From positions 310,001-374,000 of the forward strand of contig WHVD01000068.1 of the NCBI GenBank assembly GCA_015178975.1: a DNA stretch of 64,000 nucleotides, written 5' to 3'. The notes beneath the pieces were generated by a model that saw nothing but the letters and a program-made list of their open reading frames with translations, searched no databases and was not told where the DNA came from. The DNA comes from Hysterangium stoloniferum. Lineage: Eukaryota; Basidiomycota; Agaricomycetes; Hysterangiales; Hysterangiaceae. Position 1 is the stretch's first letter. Each line of letters opens with the position of its first letter. A program made the translations under genes and the position numbers. Below are positions 2,311-42,719 of the stretch, in pieces.

Positions 2311-3316
2311 AATAAGTCACTCAAAGGAAAATTCCAGCTGGCATGTAAAGTGTACTTTCCTCACTCCATAGTCTACATTACAGCTGTTCCGAGTACCGAT
2401 GGTGGTGTTCAAAATTTAAAAAAAAAGTTCCGCTTTTGACCTACAGACAAATTGTGCTATATGTCAGGAATGAGACCCAATTAAGACACAGTATTTTGGG
2501 GCATATATGATATAATAGAGATCTATATATTTATTTATATATTTGGCCTTATGATATCCTATTTAATATTCAGTGAGATATCAGTGCAATGGTTCCCCTG
2601 CATTCAATTATTCATATATTTGCATATAGGTTGGCGGAACTAATACTATCTATTGTATGAAAATATCCCCTGAGTTGTGAGGCATAATGCTACCTTTTGA
2701 ACAAGTTACACTACTCACTATCAAGGGTGCATACAGTAAGTAGCACAACTTATTCAAAAGGTGTTATTAAGCCTCACAACTCAGGTAATATTCTCATACA
2801 ATAGATTGTATTAGTTCAACCAACCTATATGCAAATATATGAATAATTGAATGCAGGGGAACTGTGAGGTATCAGCATTATCTCATAATGTTCTCTTAAT
2901 TTTCTTTGAATTATTTAATATTCTTTCGAATTTTTATTGTATTTTTACTATGTTTATTGTGAAAAATAGGCTTTATTCCTTTTAACTTCGCATAAATAAT
3001 AGCATATAGGGACTCATATTATCCTATTATTACTTAGTTAATTTATTATAATTTTTAACTAATTATTTATATTTTATTTACTTAGTTATTACCTTTCGGC
3101 ACCTTGCTGCAGCCCAGTTTGTGCATTTTTGAAGTCATGTGACCTATTAGATAAGCCTCCGGTGTCGGGATGTCACACAGGTCACGGATGTGACTACCCG
3201 AGTCATTATTTGATCCCGCCGACTCATCGTTTGCTTCCGTCCCCGGGACCGCGGCCTTGAAGCCAAAACTTAGAACCCTTGTCTCAGAGAGGGGAATCAT
3301 GTGATAAATACAGGGT

Positions 3317-3560
3317 TGTTAGATTATATAATACCAACCATTGTTCCAACTGGGACCATATGGTGTACAGCTCTGAGTTCAGTGTGTATATGATCTAATA
3401 GGAATGGCGCTTAGGGTTATATCCTTAAGTACAGTGTAAGACCAAACCTACCCAAGGTCAGATGGTGTAGTGGTTAACACCTTCGTTATGTAATCGAGAG
3501 ATCCTGGGTTCAATCCCCAGTCTGGCTATTCATTTTCTACATTACTTATGTTTTCTAACA
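3317..3560 (+). repeat. TRIM 5' LTR
   Basis: A 244-bp repeat, TG...CA, with 5-bp inverted ends TGTTA/TAACA. It is identical to 3727-3970 and holds the tRNA-like sequence at 3456-3527. Confidence 0.92.
3456..3527 (+). tRNA. tRNA-like sequence inside the TRIM 5' LTR
   Basis: These 72 nt fold as a cloverleaf. The acceptor GGTCAGA pairs with TCTGGCT (two G-U pairs). The D stem GTGT/ACAC surrounds loop AGTGGTTA. The anticodon stem has 4 of 5 pairs, and the T stem CTGGG/CCCAG surrounds loop TTCAATC. Pol III box A (TGGTGTAGTGG) and box B (GGTTCAATCC) are intact. The anticodon position reads TGT (Thr), but base 33 is A instead of the near-invariant T, so it is probably a tRNA-derived promoter rather than a decoding tRNA. 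Confidence 0.75.
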
Positions 3561-3577
3561 TGGTAGCAACTCCAAGG
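3561..3577 (+). promoter_or_regulatory. Putative primer-binding site of the TRIM
   Basis: TGGTAGCAACTCCAAGG abuts the 5' LTR and starts with TGG, complementary to a tRNA CCA end. The matching tRNA is not in the window. Confidence 0.6.
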
Positions 3578-3717
3578 TTAACTTGGTTTGGCTGTATTTG
3601 TGTGTATGGTATAGTGGACAAGTCTGGACGAAAAAGAGCCAGAGAACCTATACTGGCATATGATATAGTTAATGCCCAAGATCGAACCTGGAGTGTAGAA
3701 TGAACAATGCTGGCATT

Positions 3718-3726
3718 AAGGGGGTG
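3718..3726 (+). promoter_or_regulatory. Polypurine tract of the TRIM
   Basis: AAGGGGGTG lies immediately before the 3' LTR, where plus-strand priming is expected. Confidence 0.6.
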
Positions 3727-3970
3727 TGTTAGATTATATAATACCAACCATTGTTCCAACTGGGACCATATGGTGTACAGCTCTGAGTTCAGTGTGTATA
3801 TGATCTAATAGGAATGGCGCTTAGGGTTATATCCTTAAGTACAGTGTAAGACCAAACCTACCCAAGGTCAGATGGTGTAGTGGTTAACACCTTCGTTATG
3901 TAATCGAGAGATCCTGGGTTCAATCCCCAGTCTGGCTATTCATTTTCTACATTACTTATGTTTTCTAACA
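3727..3970 (+). repeat. TRIM 3' LTR
   Basis: A 244-bp repeat identical by eye to 3317-3560, followed by the target duplicate AGGGT. Confidence 0.92.
3866..3937 (+). tRNA. tRNA-like sequence inside the TRIM 3' LTR
   Basis: Second, identical copy of the 72-nt cloverleaf at 3456-3527, with the same box A and box B. Confidence 0.75.
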
Positions 3971-4977
3971 AGGGTAAATAATGAGTAGAATATGAGGTCA
4001 TTATGATCCAACTAGTGACCTCATAAACTAAATAATTAGCTAATCATTGAGTTATCAAAATGTATATAAGGAGGGCCAAGTTTCCAATAAAATCAATCTA
4101 TCACACACATATTTTACAGTACAGCACAGAAGCTTACCTCATCATCCTAAGGACAATAATAGCCTTAGTCTGATACACTAACTGCAAGCACCTACACTTG
4201 CAGCATCTTGAATCTTTGTCAGCAACTCTTGGACTTAGCTAATCATCTAAGTTCCCCAGCCTCACAGCTACCCTTTAGGCTTATTAATTAGATAATAAAC
4301 CTAATAAGTATCTAAGTATCCTTACTGAAATCCCTGCCAATACTAGATTATTCAAGGCCCAGCCCTAAGTTTATTGAATTAATCAAGTACAAGCACTGAG
4401 ATAATCCAATACATATTAGTTTCTCTATTAATAAATTATTTAACACCTTGTTAAATAACTATTAATAGTTACAAATAATCATACAAGAATCCGAAGCTCT
4501 TATATCAAGTCTCTGCCAAGTTACTGCGCATATATTCAGCTTCCAGCCCCTATTCTCAAGGAATAGTTCTTTTATTTGCTAAAAGAGTCATACACAGTTC
4601 TATTGAACCTTTCAATAATCAAAATAAGCATTGATTTGAGTTGTTTAAGCTTCATAGCGCAGCTCATTAATCTATCAGTATTTAAATTACTGGACCTTTG
4701 CTTGTTTTATTGTTGAAGCTCTGTGACACTATAGCATATACTGAGCTATCTAAGAGAATCCCCTGAATACATTACAGGAACCATTGCACTGATATCTCAC
4801 TGAATATTAAATAGGATGTCATAAGGCCAAATATATACATAAATATATAGATCTCTACTGTATCATATACACCCCAAAATACTGTGTCTTAATTGGGTCT
4901 CATTCCTGACATATAGCACAGCGGAACTTTTTTTTTTTAATTTTGAACACCGCCATCAGTACTCGGAACAGCTGTAA

Positions 4978-6575: not shown

Positions 6576-8138
6576 ATGAGGTGGCACCTTTTTAGTCCCA
6601 TTGCCTTGTGCGTATGGCTGGGCTACATTTCAGCGTACATTTTCGTTCTCGAAAAGGCAGTCCGAAACGCTCCCCACGACATTGGAAAGAGCTCGTTCTA
6701 CGACTTATTGGCGAGCTTGATGCACACATTTTTCTCCCAATTTCACACGTCTATTACCACTTTATACCTCGTCCGAGTCGCTGCTTCCGCGTTTCAGGGG
6801 GATGAAGCAGCTGATTGTACCTGGGGTGAGCTCTTCTGGATGAGTGACAAGTCATGGTCCAGTTTCCCCCAGCTCGTACATGCTGTGACAACCATTATCG
6901 GGAAGGGTATCGCTGTCTCCCTAACATTCATCGTGTTTGCATCCACATCCTTGGTTGCCATTGCCACCCCAGCAATCTTTTTGCATGCCTATCCTCTAGG
7001 AACCGTGAATACAACATCGTCCTTCCCAATCACCCCACATGGAATATTTTCTTCCAAGGCCATCCTTGGTGTGGACCGGGACACAGAGATAGGCACAGGG
7101 ATGGGCTCATGGGCTACCGGTCTATCCGTATTTGACGCCTACGAGTTCAGTATATATAGTGCCGACATATTGTCACAAGGAAATCTCAGTGACTTCTTTT
7201 TTTCCGATGATCTCGGAGGCGCAGATGCTAATCGGACAGGATTACACCTTCAAGGAGGCTGCTCGCCATTCCCCGACGCTTCAACGGCTATTGACCAAGA
7301 TCCCGCTCTCTTACCAATATACTGCAAATCTCTTCCCCCTAATAGGGACCAAAAGATGAATATAAATGTCTCTTTTGGCACCGCTAAAGTGACGTATAGC
7401 TTTTGTACATACCCACCGGCCCTCACAGTTCCTTCCGGTCCCGACTCGAACGCCACAGCCTATATCTTCCTTCAGTCCCACAATGGAACTGCAGCCACCA
7501 CCGGTATGGTCAAGTGTCAATCGAATTTCTCGATGGGTACTGCATTCTTATCGGGAATGGACTTGACCTACACATCATTCGTGAAGAACGTCCCCTACAA
7601 GCCGGTCCAGGATGTGGGGCTTGCGGACCCTCTTTCCGCTGTACTTGCGGGTATGGTCAATACGAGCGTTGGGAAGGACACTCTTGAGGGCAGTTCAACA
7701 CTGATAAAGCAGCTAGGCTATAATGCTACCGTCGGCAATAGCAACAGCCTAGTCTTTATCCAGCCGAGTCTTGACATTTTCGCAGAGCGAATATGGCTCG
7801 GGGTTGCACACATGGTGGTGGGAATTGGTTTACTATCCAGTTCATCAGATACTCGCAACGTGACAATTCCGACACTCGCTCGAACGCGCTCGAAGCCATA
7901 CATTTCTGGGCTAATCGCATTGCTAACCTCGTGGTTGTGTGGGTTAATATTTGTTTCCATTATTGGTTATCGTCCCTCTATTGAACCTAGATTGGGAAGC
8001 CTTACTACGGCGATTCGTTTACAGGAGATCTATGCTCTCCCAAAAGCAGGAGATGAGTCATCTCAGAAACAGTTTGATTTGATTGATTTTTCGGATCCTA
8101 ATTGGCTTACTAAAAAAGTAGGCGCGAGGCGTGGTTAG
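6576..8138 (+). CDS. Unrecognised multipass membrane glycoprotein, 520 aa
   Basis: A single uninterrupted 520-codon frame, the cleanest host-type gene in the window. Hydrophobic segments lie at about residues 5-26, 103-138 (long, perhaps two helices), 395-415 and 448-470. Between the second and third is a ~250-residue domain rich in N-x-S/T sites (such as NTT, NLS, NRT, NVS, NAT, NGT, NFS) and with several Cys, so it should face the outside or the lumen. The short C-terminus is charged. The frame stays open upstream to 6495 without another ATG, and a second ATG at 6414 opens a 29-codon peptide in another frame that could be an upstream exon, but I found no consistent splice. Resembles the many lineage-specific membrane proteins of mushroom fungi; function unknown. 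Confidence 0.75.
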   Translation: MRWHLFSPIALCVWLGYISAYIFVLEKAVRNAPHDIGKSSFYDLLASLMHTFFSQFHTSITTLYLVRVAASAFQGDEAADCTWGELFWMSDKSWSSFPQLVHAVTTIIGKGIAVSLTFIVFASTSLVAIATPAIFLHAYPLGTVNTTSSFPITPHGIFSSKAILGVDRDTEIGTGMGSWATGLSVFDAYEFSIYSADILSQGNLSDFFFSDDLGGADANRTGLHLQGGCSPFPDASTAIDQDPALLPIYCKSLPPNRDQKMNINVSFGTAKVTYSFCTYPPALTVPSGPDSNATAYIFLQSHNGTAATTGMVKCQSNFSMGTAFLSGMDLTYTSFVKNVPYKPVQDVGLADPLSAVLAGMVNTSVGKDTLEGSSTLIKQLGYNATVGNSNSLVFIQPSLDIFAERIWLGVAHMVVGIGLLSSSSDTRNVTIPTLARTRSKPYISGLIALLTSWLCGLIFVSIIGYRPSIEPRLGSLTTAIRLQEIYALPKAGDESSQKQFDLIDFSDPNWLTKKVGARRG

Positions 8139-27010: not shown

Positions 27011-27560
27011 TAATTGAATATACAAAATTTTACTGAATAATCCTCATATTTTCCAAGTGAGTCTATTCCTTCTGGCCATGACAACTTATTCTATGCATTT
27101 ATATTTAATTACCTGAAATTTCATCTTTAAAATATGCATGCCTTTTTAAAATACACACAAATGACATAGTTACACAAGATTATTTGGGTTAACCCAGATT
27201 ATTTGGGTTAACCTAGATTATTTGGGTTAACCTAGATTATTTGGGTTATGACTTAATCTTTGGGTTATGATTTATTCTCTTGTATACAAGCAAACTTTCA
27301 AATATATTTCATATAATTTGAATTTTGTTGGTTTAGAGAGTTAACCAGAACTATCTGGGATACCAATCCCCATTGTGCAATTTATTCCAAAAGAATAATC
27401 TACAGATGATTGTTTGACTAAATTTTGTCAGATATAGGATAAATATTAATATCTTTGCATTCTTCAGAGTGATACCTAATCAACTGAATTTGATTAAATA
27501 TTAAATTTACAACAAACAATATAACTATATATACTTTAGTGGATAAATAACTTTTAAAGT
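27011..27560. mobile_element. AT-rich insertion in Gypsy pol
   Basis: About 540 bp of very AT-rich, non-coding DNA separates the end of RNase H ([11 protein letters not shown]) from the integrase zinc domain (KCDHPP), where related elements have continuous coding. TTAA-like bases border both ends. It includes 4-5 tandem units of about 20 bp with the palindrome GGGTTAACC (about 27180-27260). Element type unresolved. Confidence 0.5.
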
Positions 27561-28402
27561 TTTGGGTTATCCTCCTTAGTAACTGGGTCTAGCGGAATTG
27601 CCAATAGAATATCTTGATGTAACTTCTCGATATCCATAATGATAATTCCACGGACAATGGGATTGACGAGGAAAGTTGCACGGACCGATGCGGTAAGTTG
27701 TTGATTCGTGAAAATAGGTTTCAGATTGTGTGGATTTACCGTTGCATAGTCGTTGCTCCCCTCTTTAGGATAGACGTCCCATCGTCTAGTTAAAGTGTCA
27801 GGTTTGCCGCCGAGGCGGCCGGGTCGAAAACGGATAATCATGTTGAAGGCAGATAGATATTCAGACCAGCGGGCCTGCCGGCGGGTCAACAGTTTTGTGG
27901 TAGAAAAATATTCCAGGTTTTTGTGATCCGTTACAATGTCAATAGGAGCTCCTGAGCCTTCCAAATAGTGTCGCCACGCTTTGAAAGCTGAAAAGATTGC
28001 CAGAAGTTCTTTATCATGAATGTCATAGTTGAGCTCTGCTCCGGTAAAAGTCCAGGACAGAAAGGCCATGGGGTGGACCTTTCCGTCGGAGTCCTGGATA
28101 GACAGAATGGCTCCAAGTGCATAATCCGAGGCGTCCATTTCAACAATGAGCGGGAAGTCTGGTTTCCAATGCAACAGGATAGGAGCTGTAGAAAAAGAAT
28201 TTTTTAAAAGATTGAAAGCTTTTTGACACTTATCATTAAAGTTCCACAGAGTACCCTTACGTAAGACGGGCAAGGGGTACTGTGATGTCGGAATATCCAC
28301 GGATAAACCGTCTGTAAAAATTGGCAAAGCCGAGGAAGGATTGTATATCTTTGACTTTTCGGGGTTCGGGCCAATCTTTGATGACTTGCACTTTAGTTTC
28401 AT
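27554..28402 (-). CDS. Gypsy RNase H and linker
   Basis: The frame contains [17 protein letters not shown] (first Asp), [20 protein letters not shown] (Glu), [10 protein letters not shown] (Asp) and [18 protein letters not shown], all typical of Ty3/Gypsy RNase H, followed by the linker toward integrase. Its frame differs from that of the RT before it. It would degrade the RNA strand during reverse transcription. Confidence 0.88.
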
Positions 28403-28946
28403 CCATGCGGAGTCCGTCAGGTCCCATCAAGAAACCTAGGTATTCCACGGAGTCCGTGTCAAAAGTACATTTTTTACCATTTGCGAATAAACCATGTTTT
28501 CTCAGTCTCCGGAGAACTTCATGGACTTGTTTGTCGTGTTCCGCGGGATTCTCGAAGTAGATAAGAATGTCATCCAAGTAAACAATGACGCATACATCAA
28601 GCATGTCGCAGAAAATGTCGTTGATAAAATGCTGAAAAACAGAAGGAGCATTGGTGAGACCAAAAGGGATCACCAACCACTCAAAGGCCCCATAGCGGGT
28701 TCTAAAAGTGGTTTTCCATTCGTCGCCCATGGCAATCTGGACCAAATGATAGGCATGTTTGAGATCTATTTTGGTGTAAATCTGGGCATTCCGCAGAGTA
28801 TCGAGCAAATCAGATATCAGTGGGAGTGGATATTTGTCCTTTTTGGTGACAGCATTGAGGCCTCTGAAATCAACACATAGTCTAAGGGATCCATCCTTAT
28901 TTCTGACAAACAGAACAGGTGCTCCAAAGGAGACTTTGAGGGTCAA
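28257..28946 (-). CDS. Gypsy reverse transcriptase
   Basis: Motifs in order: [20 protein letters not shown] then [39 protein letters not shown] and the catalytic [11 protein letters not shown], then [11 protein letters not shown] and [12 protein letters not shown]. It is the polymerase of the element. The active-site YLDD is intact, but the frame is shifted against both neighbours. Confidence 0.9.
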
Positions 28947-29878
28947 ATAAAACCTATGGACAAATGTTCATCCAGGAAATCACAGATTGCGGATAGTTCC
29001 GTGGACGAAAGCGGGTAAATATGTCCTAGGGGTGGCTGGGTGCCATCTTCAAGATCGATTTTCAAGTTGTATTCTCTGTGAGGCGGAAGCCGGTCAGCTT
29101 TCCACTTGCTAAAAACATCCGCGAAGTCATGATATTTCTCCAGGACGCCTTCTAGGTCAGCGGCTTGCTCAGACTCAGATACTGGTGTTGAAAAACGTCC
29201 AGTTGCTTCATCAATTTTTAAGTTGATAGTGAACACCTGGGACCCATCCATTTTTGAAGCCCTAATAAAAGCTGCAGCATTAATCAGAGAAATGGACGGA
29301 GGTGCTGTGGGTTCCGGGGAAGCTGTAGGTGCCGTAGGGATCACAGGAGTCCTCGAGACTGCAGGTGCCGGGAAGGCCATGGGTGTCGTGGAGGCCGAGA
29401 CAGGCGCAGTTTCCTTGGTCACCGCAGGAGTCCGGAATGTTATACTGTTAGCTATCCAGTCAATCAATGGATTGTAGCGGGTAAGCCAGTTATGTCCTAG
29501 GACCACCGAGAAACTTGAGTCTAACTGGGTCACATAGAAAGTGACCAATTGAGATGTTCCACATGGGAAACTGATGGGTAAATCACAAGCTTGGGTAACT
29601 ACCAAATTGCTTGTGCCATCAAAGAGGCAGAGGCCGACGGGATTTATCGAATAGGTTGACAAAAAAATGTTTTGCGTGAATTTTGTATCTAAAAAACAAG
29701 GAGTCGAGCCAGAATCTATGAGAGCTGAAAAAACGAATTTCGGGATCATATTAGACATAAGCTTAACGAAAAATGAATCAGAATGTGAGAGAGCGGATGC
29801 GTTGAGATGAGTAAACTCTTGAATGCGCGGAGAGGCAACGCAACCCCCAACCTGCATGGAGTCCATGGGGTTGCTCAC
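28943..29878 (-). CDS. Gypsy protease region
   Basis: It contains the retroviral aspartic-protease motif in [15 protein letters not shown], then [18 protein letters not shown] Pro/Ala/Thr-rich spacer follows and then the lead-in to RT ([20 protein letters not shown]). It overlaps the gag frame by a GTGA in another frame, as expected of a gag-pol frameshift or of decay. Confidence 0.85.
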
Positions 29879-31141
29879 TCTTTTTTTGAGTCGGACGCCG
29901 GTTTGTCCTTCGACGGGGTATCCGTGGAAGCCTTGGCTGTTCGTCCCTTAGAAGAGTTTGCTTTTGCCAGCGGACATTCCGGGACTCGATGGCTGGGTTT
30001 CCCACACAATAGACAGAGGTTGTTGTCCATACGACGTTGTCTTTCTTGTGGGGTCAGTTTGCCATCGGGTCCGAGTTTGCCTGAGAGGTTGGGTTTTCCG
30101 GCTTGCTTGCTGGACTGTTGACCTTTGTTGTTGTCCTTATTGTCCCTGTTGTTGTTGTTTGAAGACTTCTTGTCGTTCTTCTTGTCGGATTGTGTGGAGT
30201 TGCTGGTTGATGAATTATTGGTATTGTTTTTATTGTCCTTGGACTTGTTTACTTTGTCTGCGGACATCTCGTGGGCAACTTCCGCGCGACGTTCCCAATA
30301 ACGTGCATCTGCGTTTTGAGCCTTGAGGCGCATATGGGACAGGGTTTTTGGCTTGCCATCTTCTCCTTTTGAGACTTCGTCTTTAAGGCGGGATGGCAGA
30401 CCGGCATAGAATTGGTGGCGGAGAGTGGGATCACTGACAACGAGCGGCAAGATTGTTGAATTGGACGATGTAGTCCATGATGCGCTGCGTGTCCTTCATA
30501 CGAAGATTTGTGAGGCTATTCTCGGCTTCTCCTGTCGGGTCATACAGGCCAAAGTTGGTTTCAAGCTCCTCAACAAAAGCATCCCAATTTTCAAGCCAAA
30601 GCGGCTCATCCTCGGAAATCCCGCTAAAGGCCGGTTCGAACCATTTCAACGCAGATCCCGATAAATATGAAAGTGCGGAGTTGACTTTTCGGGAGTCCGT
30701 GGAGAATGCAGCGGCACGATCATGGAAATTGAAGCGACATTGCATGAGGAAAGTAGAGAGTTTGTTTGGGTTGGAACCTGTGAAGGGTTCCGGAGCATTG
30801 ACTTTCGACCGTGGAGGTTCTTGTTCCTTTTTCTTTCGTTCTTCAAGCAGGTGCGTCATGAATTTATCTATTGTTCCTGCTAAAAATTCAGAAGTAGGGT
30901 CCCTGAAATGTGGTCGTTCAACAGGCGGAGGATCTTCGACACCTTTGCCTTTGTCGGGGCCCACGGATTCTTCCTTGTGCTCGGAGTCGCCCTGGTCTTC
31001 CGGGACTTCTTCGATACTGGCTTCCTCCACGGGTTCCGACTGGTTCGCAAGCGTCTGGCTGGTATACAGAGTTAATGGGGAATGAAGAGTTGACGGTCCA
31101 GGTAATGATGCCTGTGCGCGTGTATTTCTTCTTGGTGGCAT
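29875..31141 (-). CDS. Gypsy gag (frameshifted)
   Basis: It starts at ATG 31141, 37 bp inside the 5' LTR. The capsid-like part contains HFRDPTSEFLAGTIDKFMTH, RSKVNAPEPFTGSNPNKLST and LSYLSGSALKWFEPAF. One frameshift at about 30431-30450 joins ...NLAARC to PLVVSDPTLRHQFYAGLPS. It ends with a zinc knuckle CLLCGKPSHRVPEC (C-x2-C-x4-H-x4-C) and a Lys/Ser/Asn-rich tail. It builds the particle and binds RNA. Confidence 0.88.
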
Positions 31142-39023: not shown

Positions 39024-42000
39024 TCAATACTGTGGAGTGGGCATTCTGTAATAAAGAGAGGGTATGTCATGGAACAGCGGGACGATGGGCCATAAAATTT
39101 GTACCCTGAGCCCCGACTTCGTGCCCAAGAGGAAGGCTAGGTCGAGTCCACGCGAGACCTTGCGCAGGAGGGAGCGGTGTCCTTCAAAGAGGGAGCAGCT
39201 GGTGAGGATGTGTTCGCGTGTCTGGAGAGGTGCGGAGCCACATGGGCAGGCAGTGGAGAGGTTGGGAAGAAAGCGAGAGTAGTACTCCCCAAGGAAGCCA
39301 TGCCCGGTGATTGCTTGGATGAGGTGGGTGTGTTGCGCTCGGGAGCCGGGGAAGTCCTTGTGGATGGGAGAGAGTTTGAGCGATGGCGGGCTAGTGAGGA
39401 CCAGAGCTGAGGCATTCGAGTGCGGTTTGGCGGCCCAATCCCTGCCCCATTCTCTAACTGAGCGGACTTTGGCCCTTTCCCGGGCCCAAGTGATAGTCGA
39501 GTGCAGTACTGGCCTGGCAGAGGTGGCCTGCTTTGCCAGTGTGTCAGCGCGTTCATTGCCTTGAAAGCCCGAGTGGCCTGGGACCCACGATATTTCCAAG
39601 GAGGTGCATCGGGAGGAGGTAAACAGGGAATCAACATGTTTGCGGAATAAGGCTGAGCACAGTTGTGCTGGGTGCGGTGATGGATCAAGAATAGACAATA
39701 TTGCTGCCTGGTTGTCAGCAAAGAATGTTACACACATTATGGAGGGGAACTGGTCAATGATTCCTGGCAGGCGGGCGGCAGCACCAGCGAGAGCAAGCAT
39801 CTCAGCATCGAAGACGCTTGCCCTGCGTCCCAGGCCCCATTGGCTGGAGGCTACCTCCGTACCAAGATGTACTGCTGAGAAGCCGCATCCTGTCCGTTTA
39901 TAGCCATTGGATCGTCGTCTTGATCCATCAGTGAATACGGCCAGGTGAGACGGGTCAGTAGATATTACTTTGATGCGGCTCTTGAGCTGGTTGATGAACC
40001 TTTGGCGTTCTTCGTCAGAAGAGCGTGCAGCTGGGAGGATGGTTTGGAGGTGGTCACCCCAGGGGTTCTCTCTCTCCCAGGGTGGTGGGGTGTATGGGGA
40101 GATTCTCTCCGACTTGGCACTCGTGAGGGCAGCCAAACGGTGTATGATGGTAGGAGGTGGAGTCTTTCCCCCCCTCTTGTTTGATCGGCGCACGGCCCGG
40201 GGGTGTAGAGGAAAGGTGGGATCGTGCTCATCCCAGTGAGGAGGGAGATGGACTAGAACCTGGGATGTGACCGGGAGGGCCCGGAACCGCGTTGCAGTAT
40301 TCGAGGACAGGCGCTTTAGGAGAAATGGGATGGGGATAATGGAGGCCAGATGGTGCATTTCTGCGATTGGGGTAGTGCGAAAGGCCCCAAGGAGCCAGCG
40401 AAGTCCAACGGCTTGGGCACGCTCCAGGGGCTTAATGAGCTCTTTTTGACAGACTCCTGTGTACCACACAGCGGAACCAAAGGTGAGAATTGGGAGGATT
40501 ACAGTGATGTAGAGAAGGCGGGCATTAGTAACAGAGAGGCCTCGCACACAATTGGCAAGGATTCGAAGGCCAGCTACGGCAGAGAGGGCCTTGTTTGAGA
40601 CCTCAGAGACGTGTCGCCTGAATGTGAGATGGCTATCGAACCACACCCCTAACCACCTGATAACGGGCTGGGGGTTGACATTGAAAGGTTGAGAATGGGG
40701 TGGGTGGATGGTGAGTGGCATGTCTGATGAGGGCATTGTTTTGGGACGAAAGAAATGAATAAGCTCCGTCTTGTCAACATCTGTGGAGAGCCCAAGTGCA
40801 CTGATTGTGGAGAGCATGGGTTTGAGAGCCTCACCTAGCAGGTGGACATTGGATTCCAGAGAGTGTGAATAGGCCAGGATGAGCACATCATCGACATAAG
40901 ACTTCACATTTGTCCCAGGGACTGCTGTAGAGAGACGGAGGATGGGTGATGCGTAGATCGTGGAAAGAATGGGAGATAGGGGGGACCCCTGGGGTATGCC
41001 AACCTCAGCGAGGGGGACGATGGGACCAGTGGATCCATCCACCCGGACTTTGACGCTCCGATGCGAGAGGAAAGACTTGACCCACCCAATGAGGTGGGGG
41101 GCGAAGCCTAGTAATTCCATGGTGCGAATGAGACGGGGATGATTGACAAAATCAAAGAATCCTTTAATGTCGAGTGTAACCGCTGTGGCCACCTGTCTGG
41201 TACTCCAGGCGGCTTGAATGTCATGTGTTAGTGTGAGACACGCATCAATAACCGAGGATTTATCTCGGCCACCAAACTGGTTGGATGGAACCAGGTTGAG
41301 TTTCCCAACCTCAAAGGTGACACGTTGGGCAACAAGCTTTTCGAGAAGCTTGCTGAGGCATTCAAGGAGGGAGATAGGACGATAAGAGCGGGGGTTAGAC
41401 ATGTCCGCCTTCCTGGGCTTAGGGACAACAGTGACAATGGCAGTCTTAAGGCGTGTTGGGTGGTGTTGGTGGGTGACACATCCATTTAGGAGTTTCATTA
41501 TCACATCTGGGATGACCTCAAAGGCCCACTTGATGAGTCTCCAGTTGATGCCTGACTCACCGGGTGCAGATCTATTGGATGTGGAGGATAAAGAGTTCCG
41601 GATCTCACTCTGAGTGAAGACAGGGAAGTCCCGGATCGGGAGGGGCAGTGGGTCGTCAGGTAAGTCGATCAGAGCTGATGGGGCTGCGGCGGGAAAGAAG
41701 GCTTGGGCAAATGCACGGCCCTGCTTCTCGGGGTGGGTGGAGACACCTGTGGCGGAGCGGATAGGGGGAGTCCGAGAGCGTCGGCTCCCTGTGGCCCATT
41801 TGGTGAGGCTCCATATTTCTGTGGGGGCCGTGTCACAGATGATATCTGTGGCCCACTCCCGTTTGGCAGTGCGGACTACGCCTCGGAACCTACTCCTGGC
41901 AATGCTTTTGTTTACTCGAGCAGCCGTCTGGATGTCCAGGAGTGCTGAGTCGCATGCGTCATTCCACCAGGGAGCACAGTGCTTGAGTTTCGTCTTACTT

Positions 42001-42719
42001 TTGGGCATGACACCCTCTGTGGCAATGAGTAGGGCTTCGAACAATGTGTCGAAGGCGTGGTCGAGGTCCTGGGTAGAAAGCAGGGGGAGGGAGTTGACCC
42101 TGTCAAGGAGGGGGGAGACCCGTTCTTTCCAAGGCCCCATCTTCGAAGGGTCAATGCGGAGATGAGGCTTGTCCAGGGTTGGGAGGGGGGGAGGAGTCTG
42201 ATCCACTGTGATGGACCACGAGATGGCGTTATGGTCAGAGTTTAGAGCAAAGGCGTCCTGGCATTTCCAGGAGGAGACCAGGTCTGTTTCAGAGGCGGCA
42301 AAGTTTGCTAGTGTGAGGTCGAGTACAGAGTCGGATTGGTTTGCGTGGCCTCTACGGGTAGGGCACTCTGGGTCGTTCAGTATGGAGAATCCCTGGGTGA
42401 CTGTCCACTCGAAGAAATCCACCGCAGCTCTGGATGGCTCGCGAGTGAGGTTGGGGGACCATGCAGGGTGGTGGAGATTAAAATCCCCAGCAACGACTGT
42501 GGGGATGGATGGGTCCAGACTAGTGTCGAATAAGGTATGAATTGTCAGGTCACTGCCCCGGGACCCAGAGTTATAGATATTGATTAGTATAAAGGGTTGA
42601 GACCCATACTGTACATGTAGCAGGAGCATATCTGGTGAGGCAGGAGAGTCAGCGAGAAAGTGAAAAGATCCACTCATAGGGACACTCAGAAAAGTGCGGA
42701 CAGTGTAAAAAGCCGACAT
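39024..42719 (-). CDS. LINE ORF2: endonuclease, RT and RNase H, 1231 aa
   Basis: One open frame of 1231 codons. The start is a truncated AP-endonuclease: VVAGDFNLHHPAW (residues ~78-90) and LNSDHNAISWS (~160) are its later catalytic motifs. RT: VVPKPRKADMSNPRSYRPIS, VTLDIKGFFDFVNH, VGIPQGSPLSPIL, and active site YVDDVLIL (~630). RNase H: AVFTDGSRRRSNG, VFDAEMLALAG, FFADNQAAI and WVPGHSGFQGNERADTLA. A C-terminal Cys/His group CPCG-x5-TREHILTSC follows. This is the layout of Tad1/I-type fungal LINEs. The first ~100 residues of the endonuclease are missing here and lie on the plus strand at 46758-46998. Unusually intact for this region. Confidence 0.93.
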   Translation of the reverse strand: MSAFYTVRTFLSVPMSGSFHFLADSPASPDMLLLHVQYGSQPFILINIYNSGSRGSDLTIHTLFDTSLDPSIPTVVAGDFNLHHPAWSPNLTREPSRAAVDFFEWTVTQGFSILNDPECPTRRGHANQSDSVLDLTLANFAASETDLVSSWKCQDAFALNSDHNAISWSITVDQTPPPLPTLDKPHLRIDPSKMGPWKERVSPLLDRVNSLPLLSTQDLDHAFDTLFEALLIATEGVMPKSKTKLKHCAPWWNDACDSALLDIQTAARVNKSIARSRFRGVVRTAKREWATDIICDTAPTEIWSLTKWATGSRRSRTPPIRSATGVSTHPEKQGRAFAQAFFPAAAPSALIDLPDDPLPLPIRDFPVFTQSEIRNSLSSTSNRSAPGESGINWRLIKWAFEVIPDVIMKLLNGCVTHQHHPTRLKTAIVTVVPKPRKADMSNPRSYRPISLLECLSKLLEKLVAQRVTFEVGKLNLVPSNQFGGRDKSSVIDACLTLTHDIQAAWSTRQVATAVTLDIKGFFDFVNHPRLIRTMELLGFAPHLIGWVKSFLSHRSVKVRVDGSTGPIVPLAEVGIPQGSPLSPILSTIYASPILRLSTAVPGTNVKSYVDDVLILAYSHSLESNVHLLGEALKPMLSTISALGLSTDVDKTELIHFFRPKTMPSSDMPLTIHPPHSQPFNVNPQPVIRWLGVWFDSHLTFRRHVSEVSNKALSAVAGLRILANCVRGLSVTNARLLYITVILPILTFGSAVWYTGVCQKELIKPLERAQAVGLRWLLGAFRTTPIAEMHHLASIIPIPFLLKRLSSNTATRFRALPVTSQVLVHLPPHWDEHDPTFPLHPRAVRRSNKRGGKTPPPTIIHRLAALTSAKSERISPYTPPPWERENPWGDHLQTILPAARSSDEERQRFINQLKSRIKVISTDPSHLAVFTDGSRRRSNGYKRTGCGFSAVHLGTEVASSQWGLGRRASVFDAEMLALAGAAARLPGIIDQFPSIMCVTFFADNQAAILSILDPSPHPAQLCSALFRKHVDSLFTSSRCTSLEISWVPGHSGFQGNERADTLAKQATSARPVLHSTITWARERAKVRSVREWGRDWAAKPHSNASALVLTSPPSLKLSPIHKDFPGSRAQHTHLIQAITGHGFLGEYYSRFLPNLSTACPCGSAPLQTREHILTSCSLFEGHRSLLRKVSRGLDLAFLLGTKSGLRVQILWPIVPLFHDIPSLYYRMPTPQY

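Follow-up and report, generated by a model that had tools for sequence, protein, structure and literature searches.

A Helenus-type TRIM with tRNA-like LTRs in Hysterangium stoloniferum and its fused insertions with a Copia element

The element and the tRNA-like part of its LTRs

The window (the whole stretch of 64,000 nucleotides of Hysterangium stoloniferum DNA that was analysed) contains at positions 3317-3970 a 654-bp miniature LTR retrotransposon (TRIM), composed of two 244-bp LTRs and a 166-bp core. Its features are given below, F1 denoting the family of this TRIM and F2 to F5 the other tRNA-bearing TRIM families of the same genome.

3312..3316, no strand: target site duplication AGGGT, 5-bp, left (from sequence)
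3317..3560, + strand: 5' LTR, 244 bp, TGTTAG...CTAACA (LTR comparison)
3456..3528, + strand: tRNA-like gene of the 5' LTR (ARAGORN; Rfam RF00005, 49 bits)
3463..3473, + strand: box A, TGGTGTAGTGG (fits the consensus; 0 variable columns among 53 LTRs)
3507..3516, + strand: box B, GGTTCAATCC (fits the consensus; a single-base gap once among 53 LTRs)
3533..3536, + strand: TTTT, possible weak Pol III terminator, 4 nt past the tRNA-like part
3551-3554, + strand: second TTTT, possible weak Pol III terminator (from sequence)
3561..3579, + strand: primer binding site, TGGTAGCAACTCCAAGGTT, complementary to the 3' end of initiator tRNA-Met with its CCA
3589..3671, + strand: core hairpin with a box-A-like word at 3607-3617, common to F2 and F4
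3675..3694, + strand: T-arm of initiator tRNA-Met (nt 47-67) copied in sense orientation, with the capacity to pair with the primer site of the same element
3718..3726, + strand: polypurine tract, AAGGGGGTG (by eye)
3727..3970, + strand: 3' LTR, same sequence as the 5' LTR (LTR comparison)
3866..3938, + strand: tRNA-like gene of the 3' LTR (ARAGORN; Rfam RF00005)
3971..3975, no strand: target site duplication AGGGT, 5-bp, right (from sequence)

The two LTRs (3317-3560 and 3727-3970) are 100% identical, within a 247-nt repeat at a spacing of 410, and AGGGT stands on both sides of the TRIM (3312-3316 and 3971-3975), as an earlier note on this DNA had described. Its reading of the core as non-coding is also borne out (the longest ORF overlapping the TRIM has 77 aa, leaving an element of less than 1000 bp without coding capacity), and the TGG-type primer site and the purine tract that it had listed are both present at the core ends, the former fitting the 3' end of initiator tRNA-Met with CCA and the latter located by eye at 3718-3726. 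The box-A-like word TGGTATAGTGG of the core is real as well, at 3607-3617. When the flanks were joined without the TRIM, at least 40 places in the genome matched across the junction at 93-97% identity (40 of 620 candidates scored), with 35 of the 40 listed matches spanning all 118 nt; the empty form of the insertion site is therefore common, and the site is itself a repeat.

Elsewhere in the window, we observed a broken Ty3/gypsy-type element (27554-31141, - strand; gag, protease, RT and RNase H in separate frames), a LINE-type element (39024-42719, - strand; a 1231-aa frame with endonuclease, RT and RNase H domains) and a gene (6576-8138, + strand) for a protein that has no Pfam match and belongs to a family almost confined to H. 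stoloniferum (18 matches: 16 from this species, itself included, one from Mycena and one unnamed).

In each LTR of the TRIM, ARAGORN identified a tRNA of 73 nt (3456-3528 and 3866-3938), and the Rfam tRNA model (RF00005, the only Rfam family to reach its gathering score within the window) scored 49 bits in both, against a gathering score of 29; the tRNA-like gene proposed in the earlier note is thus real, although its length is 73 nt and not 72. Neither of the two refuting conditions named there is borne out, since the tRNA-like part is present in the other copies of the LTR (called in 53 of the 53 near-complete F1 LTRs, truncated LTR pieces being excluded from this set) and base-by-base shuffling abolishes it (0/2000 calls with whole LTRs shuffled and 0/2000 with the tRNA part alone shuffled, beside the 49 bits of RF00005). 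Boxes A and B, described earlier as intact, fit their consensus and are near invariant among the 53 LTRs. Overall, 7 of the 73 columns of the tRNA part are variable, and 34 columns outside it (171 positions); the anticodon arm accounts for five of the seven, four of them in CpG. The anticodons assigned by ARAGORN across the 53 LTRs are tgt in 42 and gta in two, with nine left unassigned.

The A33 of the window copy was rightly noted before, and is accompanied by a T-T mismatch closing the anticodon stem. These two features, together with the variation of the anticodon between copies, speak against the idea that the LTR encodes a working tRNA and thereby spreads decoding capacity, and, even with a full cloverleaf and a 49-bit Rfam score in its favour, we regard this idea as extremely improbable; a decoding role is likewise rejected for most Helenus elements in the main text of Kojima 2024 (PMC10886601). 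The tRNA-like part would instead act as a promoter, being neither decoder nor primer. The earlier suggestion of selection on the promoter rather than on decoding fits the invariant boxes and the drifting anticodon, but mutation bias would also explain this drift, given the CpG context of four of the five columns that vary in the anticodon arm, and for the same reason we do not claim selection on tRNA structure from the variable sites.

Copies, related families and classification

A genome search with F1 returned at least 44 matches (40 of 421 candidates scored), and 39 loci (L009-L047) were read, so that the F1 totals are lower bounds. The exact 14-mer of the primer site occurs at 20 sites in 19 loci, every one of them an F1 TRIM. 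Among 14 copies with two full LTRs, seven show 0 differences between their LTRs and the others 1, 3, 4, 4, 4, 6 and 15 alignment columns (the last figure including a 9-bp gap), in line with the very recent activity proposed earlier. Each of the 13 unfused primer-site loci carries its own 5-bp duplication, as do 18 of 20 solo LTRs; the two exceptions are L033 (on contig C49), which has a duplication around a composite alone, and L047, which has none. Near one F1 solo LTR (L045, C57), a worn F2-like tRNA-bearing piece was seen on the reverse strand at about 420-520.

Four further tRNA-bearing families were recognized. F2 has a 128-bp LTR and a 155-bp core (L063) and at least 41 matches (40 of 544 candidates scored), while F3 has a 251-bp LTR and a 66-bp core and is present as two insertions in one Copia copy (L058), each with its own duplication (GTAAT and TGTAG). 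The LTRs of F2 and F3 differ from that of F1 yet retain boxes A and B and the TTTT, which in the examined copies of F1, F2 and F3 follows right past the tRNA-like part; the Rfam tRNA scores are 48.6 bits in F3 and 46.8 bits in F2. F4 is represented by solo LTRs, worn and about 255 bp long (L117, L118, L120-L123, by eye); L119 has the hairpin stretch without the tRNA part. As ARAGORN found no tRNA in L117-L124, and L117, L118, L120, L121, L123 and L124 fell below the Rfam tRNA cut-off, the tRNA-like part of F4 is assigned by eye. F5 has a 109-bp core (L135, L136), with an ARAGORN tRNA in both LTRs of L136 and none in the cut L135.

On the contig of the window and outside it, L048 (C520:240800-242200) is a tandem array of an F2 derivative with 65-bp LTRs, which has lost boxes A and B and is flanked by TTTAT (by eye); its 20-nt junction word has four exact sites genome-wide, all on C520 (diverged ones would be missed by this search). 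Moreover, we observed at L097-L102, L105 and L116 (C526, C98, C112, C68, C61 and C290) many tRNA-Lys(CTT) genes of about 94 nt, with an intron according to ARAGORN and locally repeated (neighbours 67-88% alike in L098, L100 and L101); they were considered as TRIMs and rejected, LTR ends being absent by eye.

By the definition given in the main text of Kojima 2024 (PMC10886601), the TRIM of the window is a Helenus, and elements of its kind have thus already been published. That text describes Helenus as TRIMs with tRNA-derived LTRs in rusts, some Agaricomycetes, animals and a plant, with a screening limit of <1000 bp without coding capacity for TRIMs and a longest Helenus family of 1263 bp; the meeting report PMC12859917 also concerns Helenus. 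The likeness, taken from the same portion of the Kojima account, extends to boxes A and B in both LTRs, the primer site, the purine tract and the 5-bp duplications in fungi, as well as to the presence of several families per genome, priming by initiator tRNA-Met at its 3' end or anticodon loop, and Copia as the likely partner. A SINE identity was rejected on account of the identical LTRs, primer site, purine tract and 5-bp duplication.

The earlier note had proposed a fungal analogue of Cassandra, and this holds to the extent that the element is a Cassandra-like TRIM with a tRNA-type promoter sequence, but not as regards an undescribed kind, Helenus being in print (PMC10886601, main text). Both share a small RNA gene promoter in a TRIM LTR; Cassandra, as described by Kojima 2024, is a plant TRIM with 5S rRNA in its LTRs, whereas the LTR of the present TRIM is tRNA-like and has no 5S rRNA match that reaches the Rfam gathering score. 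The main text of Kojima 2024 (PMC10886601) does not name Hysterangiales, and such a TRIM was not found for Hysterangium stoloniferum in the literature by title or abstract start.

Fused insertions of TRIM and Copia

The genome of H. stoloniferum also harbours an abundant and young 5.5-kb Copia, a 131-bp internal piece of which is found in at least 36 places at 100% (its own included; 40 of 70 candidates scored). Its example copy (L060:2986-8462) has the duplication GCCTA and one 1414-aa frame, which, scanned in three pieces, gave Copia-type matches to gag, Pol beta-barrel, integrase and RVT_2, with no RNase H match listed. When the F1 loci were compared with this one Copia copy (L060), six of the 19 primer-site loci (C1, C60, C146, C212, C523 and C534:277-278 kb) and the C49 solo LTR were found to be joined to Copia; these six are precisely the primer-site loci that lack their own duplication.

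In all five composites with a TRIM outer end, one 5-bp duplication surrounds the whole composite (C212 AGTGG, C523 TCACC, C60 TTTGA, C534 GGAAG and C49 ACACA, the last being weaker evidence because C49 is flanked by a short tandem repeat), and LTR ends of the TRIM and/or the Copia form its outer limits. The junctions take several forms. In C523, C534 and C49 the exact LTR end of one element abuts the interior of the other. The mosaic C212 has eight junctions, of which six have 3-5 nt in common, one has none and one shows a 20-nt overlap of BLAST alignments. In C146 and C1 a piece of the TRIM is embedded in a Copia with a duplication of its own, and the junctions do not look like clean insertions by integrase; C146 additionally contains several hundred bases of neither TRIM nor Copia. 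At one C146 junction (L056:4991-5014), the TRIM 3' LTR is followed by precisely the 14 tRNA-matching nucleotides of the primer site and then by Copia, an arrangement which could be a trapped reverse-transcription intermediate. A gag-like piece in the mosaic L027 was considered as the trace of a gag-bearing TRIM parent and rejected, because in other copies it lies inside Copia.

Nesting does occur in this genome (F3 is inserted twice in one Copia copy, each time with its own duplications), and composites might on that account be attributed to later recombination between adjacent insertions or to deletions between them; in all five composites, however, the outer 5-bp duplications match, at a chance of about 1 in 1024 each, and, following the argument of Sabot and Schulman 2007 (PMC1950507), matching outer duplications mean that the parts are not independent insertions, which makes such an origin very unlikely. 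We read the composites instead as TRIM and Copia cDNAs that would have been joined in one particle before integration, via template switching or mutual integration. The complexes of Sabot and Schulman (PMC1950507) are similar in being fused LTR elements with one duplication round the whole; those of the plant elements Angela, Squiq and Opie arose by template switching between similar elements fused through shared LTRs, whereas the TRIM and the Copia share no sequence beyond the LTR start and are joined via short shared words or with a precise LTR terminus of either element set against internal sequence of its partner. A point against the partnership is that the similarity between the TRIM core and the Copia leader is not above shuffles, and the best opposite-strand score of the core motif against the whole Copia (39, against 38 for the best of 60 shuffles) was treated as noise.

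The TSD-bounded composites and the six joined loci among 19 are near-direct evidence of shared particles, and hence of the partner. Mobilisation by Copia, which the main text of Kojima 2024 (PMC10886601) infers for fungal Helenus, is present here as a genomic footprint in the form of these TSD-bounded composites; in that text partners are paired by likeness of primer sites, whereas here they are paired by fusions while their primer sites differ. The word stems 'chimer' and 'template switch' each occur 0 times in the main text of Kojima 2024 (PMC10886601), and in the accessible part of the literature on Helenus/TRIMp3 since 2024 no published description of a TRIM-Copia fusion involving Helenus came to light.

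Primer use, transcription and the proposed life cycle

The primer site of F1 (TGGTAGCAACTCCAAGGTT) matches the 3' end of initiator tRNA-Met perfectly over 14 nt, followed by an extra A and further matches, with a predicted duplex of about -30 kcal/mol. A search for the tRNA 3' end, in the exact form that a longer perfect match to the primer site would predict, gave 19 matches and no tRNA gene, since the primer site carries one additional A relative to initiator tRNA-Met; the genes of the latter were found by pattern at three loci (L073-L075), with the 3' end ...ACCTGGAGTTGCTA. The primer site of F5 is of the same type as that of F1, and the internal part of F2, F3 and the Copia starts with GGTTATGGGCCCCG, which is complementary to the anticodon arm of initiator tRNA-Met. 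The F1 TRIM and its partner Copia thus appear, as judged from sequence, to be primed by one and the same initiator tRNA-Met, the TRIM through the tRNA 3' end and the Copia through the anticodon arm; both primer types occur among fungal Helenus and Copia according to the main text of Kojima 2024 (PMC10886601).

This difference in primer sites counts against the Copia as partner, partners being matched by shared primer site in the main text of Kojima 2024 (PMC10886601). The usual partner could be another autonomous element, one using the 3' end of initiator tRNA-Met, with the Copia fusions reflecting loose co-packaging. The 12-mer TGGTAGCAACTC is found at 20 non-TRIM sites, against 8 for a control pattern, and is preceded by ACA in five (L126, L130 and L132-L134) of the ten read; L133 and L134 are on longer reading F5 Helenus, and over 32 nt L126 and L132 look the same as these two. 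Our initial statement that no other element shares the F1 primer site was dropped, as the Helenus family F5 shares it. Against such a partner stand the 14-mer of the primer site, which occurs 20 times and always in an F1 TRIM, and the fusion to this very Copia of all six primer-site loci that lack their own duplication, and we hold the other partner to be unlikely, though a serious contender.

The core contains two structures that bear on primer use and packaging. The first is the 83-nt hairpin (3589-3671), which recurs in the core of F2 and in the LTR of F4 and has 32 pairs, with 97.2% of cells paired over ten sequences, compared with 24-49% when one side was slid, a test that favours structures derived from the same alignment. 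Covariation in the hairpin is weak (one pair with both sides changed); the F1 core folds better than 198 of 200 shuffles (z -3.46) and the F2 core no better than 28 of 200. The second is the T-arm word CCCAAGATCGAACCTGGAGT (3675-3694), which corresponds to nt 47-67 of the initiator tRNA with one mismatch and one gap, a score reached by one of 5000 dinucleotide shuffles. The opposite-strand box-B-like word reported earlier at about 3680-3691 is real, but sits inside this T-arm copy, and a mimic of the primer tRNA is a better reading of it than a box B. The pattern is found in 17 of the 19 loci L009-L027 (L020 and L021 having it with one or two changes) and, with one further change, in F5 (shuffles scoring as high: 7 and 9 of 5000); it is absent from F2 and F3, the families with a primer site for the anticodon arm. 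A common origin of F1 and F5 would likewise account for the way in which the word tracks the primer type, and a functional role for it is a guess. The mimic is a feature seen in the present families.

The predicted pairing between the T-arm word and the element's own primer site (about -14.6 kcal/mol) is present in the lowest-energy fold of the core. We tentatively suggest, while considering it rather improbable, that the TRIM RNA carries a primer decoy, in which the T-arm copy pairs with the primer site until displaced in the particle by initiator tRNA-Met, one Copia reverse transcriptase starting at two tRNA sites. The pairing (10 bp and a bulge) would fold the core into a long hairpin with both ends together, and binding of initiator tRNA-Met is predicted to be about twice as stable. 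The Copia RNA would be primed from the anticodon arm and the parasite RNA from the 3' end, and with two start sites on the tRNA the parasite would be spared competition for the same cut tRNA.

With regard to transcription, boxes A and B are the feature retained by all families, and for this reason Pol III is, by inference from sequence, the better reading than Pol II. The opposing account, in which Pol II transcribes the TRIM from a TATA-like word of the LTR and the tRNA-like part is a passenger from a SINE or tRNA insertion, finds such words ahead of the tRNA-like part in F1 (131, 129, 69 and 38 nt ahead) and in F3 (many). TATA-like words can be used by Pol III in some fungi. The TTTT runs of the 5' LTR could moreover end Pol III transcription early: T4-T8 stands within 40 nt past all 28 tRNA genes listed from this genome, so that T4 can be a real stop. 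The T runs of F1, F2 and F3 are confined to the stretch past the tRNA-like part, the depletion of TTTT elsewhere in the three families not being significant (joint P ~0.33). F2, on the other hand, has 34 nt of LTR ahead of its tRNA-like part, a stretch that could hardly accommodate a Pol II promoter and that contains no TATA word; boxes A and B are retained in F1, F2 and F3, and a box-less F2 derivative was found at one locus only (by the exact junction-word search). We accordingly view transcription by Pol II as improbable.

Taken together, we consider it likely that the element is a Helenus-type TRIM whose RNA is made by Pol III, enters Copia particles, is primed by initiator tRNA-Met and is integrated by the Copia. 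Most of the TRIM RNA would be a Pol III product driven by boxes A and B of the 5' LTR, and would read through the weak TTTT of that LTR and stop past the tRNA-like part of the 3' LTR, an RNA end by which the tRNA-like part would make up most of the proposed R region. This RNA would enter the particles of the young 5.5-kb Copia (example L060:2986-8462), where initiator tRNA-Met would prime it and the Copia enzymes would integrate the copy.

New here are the fusions that indicate the partner, the apparent use of one primer tRNA at two sites and, in the core, the tRNA mimic together with a hairpin shared between families; in addition, the range of Helenus is extended to Hysterangiales. As genomes bearing Helenus hold false tRNA genes, our observations are also a warning for tRNA annotators. 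The mover of a TRIM is usually inferred from the likeness of ends or primer sites, and the fusions described here, as we read them, record the joining of TRIM and Copia cDNAs, for a pair that would have been missed by primer-site matching. They make it testable what a Pol III-type TRIM needs in order to hijack a Copia particle, the candidates being the shared hairpin and the primer-tRNA mimic.
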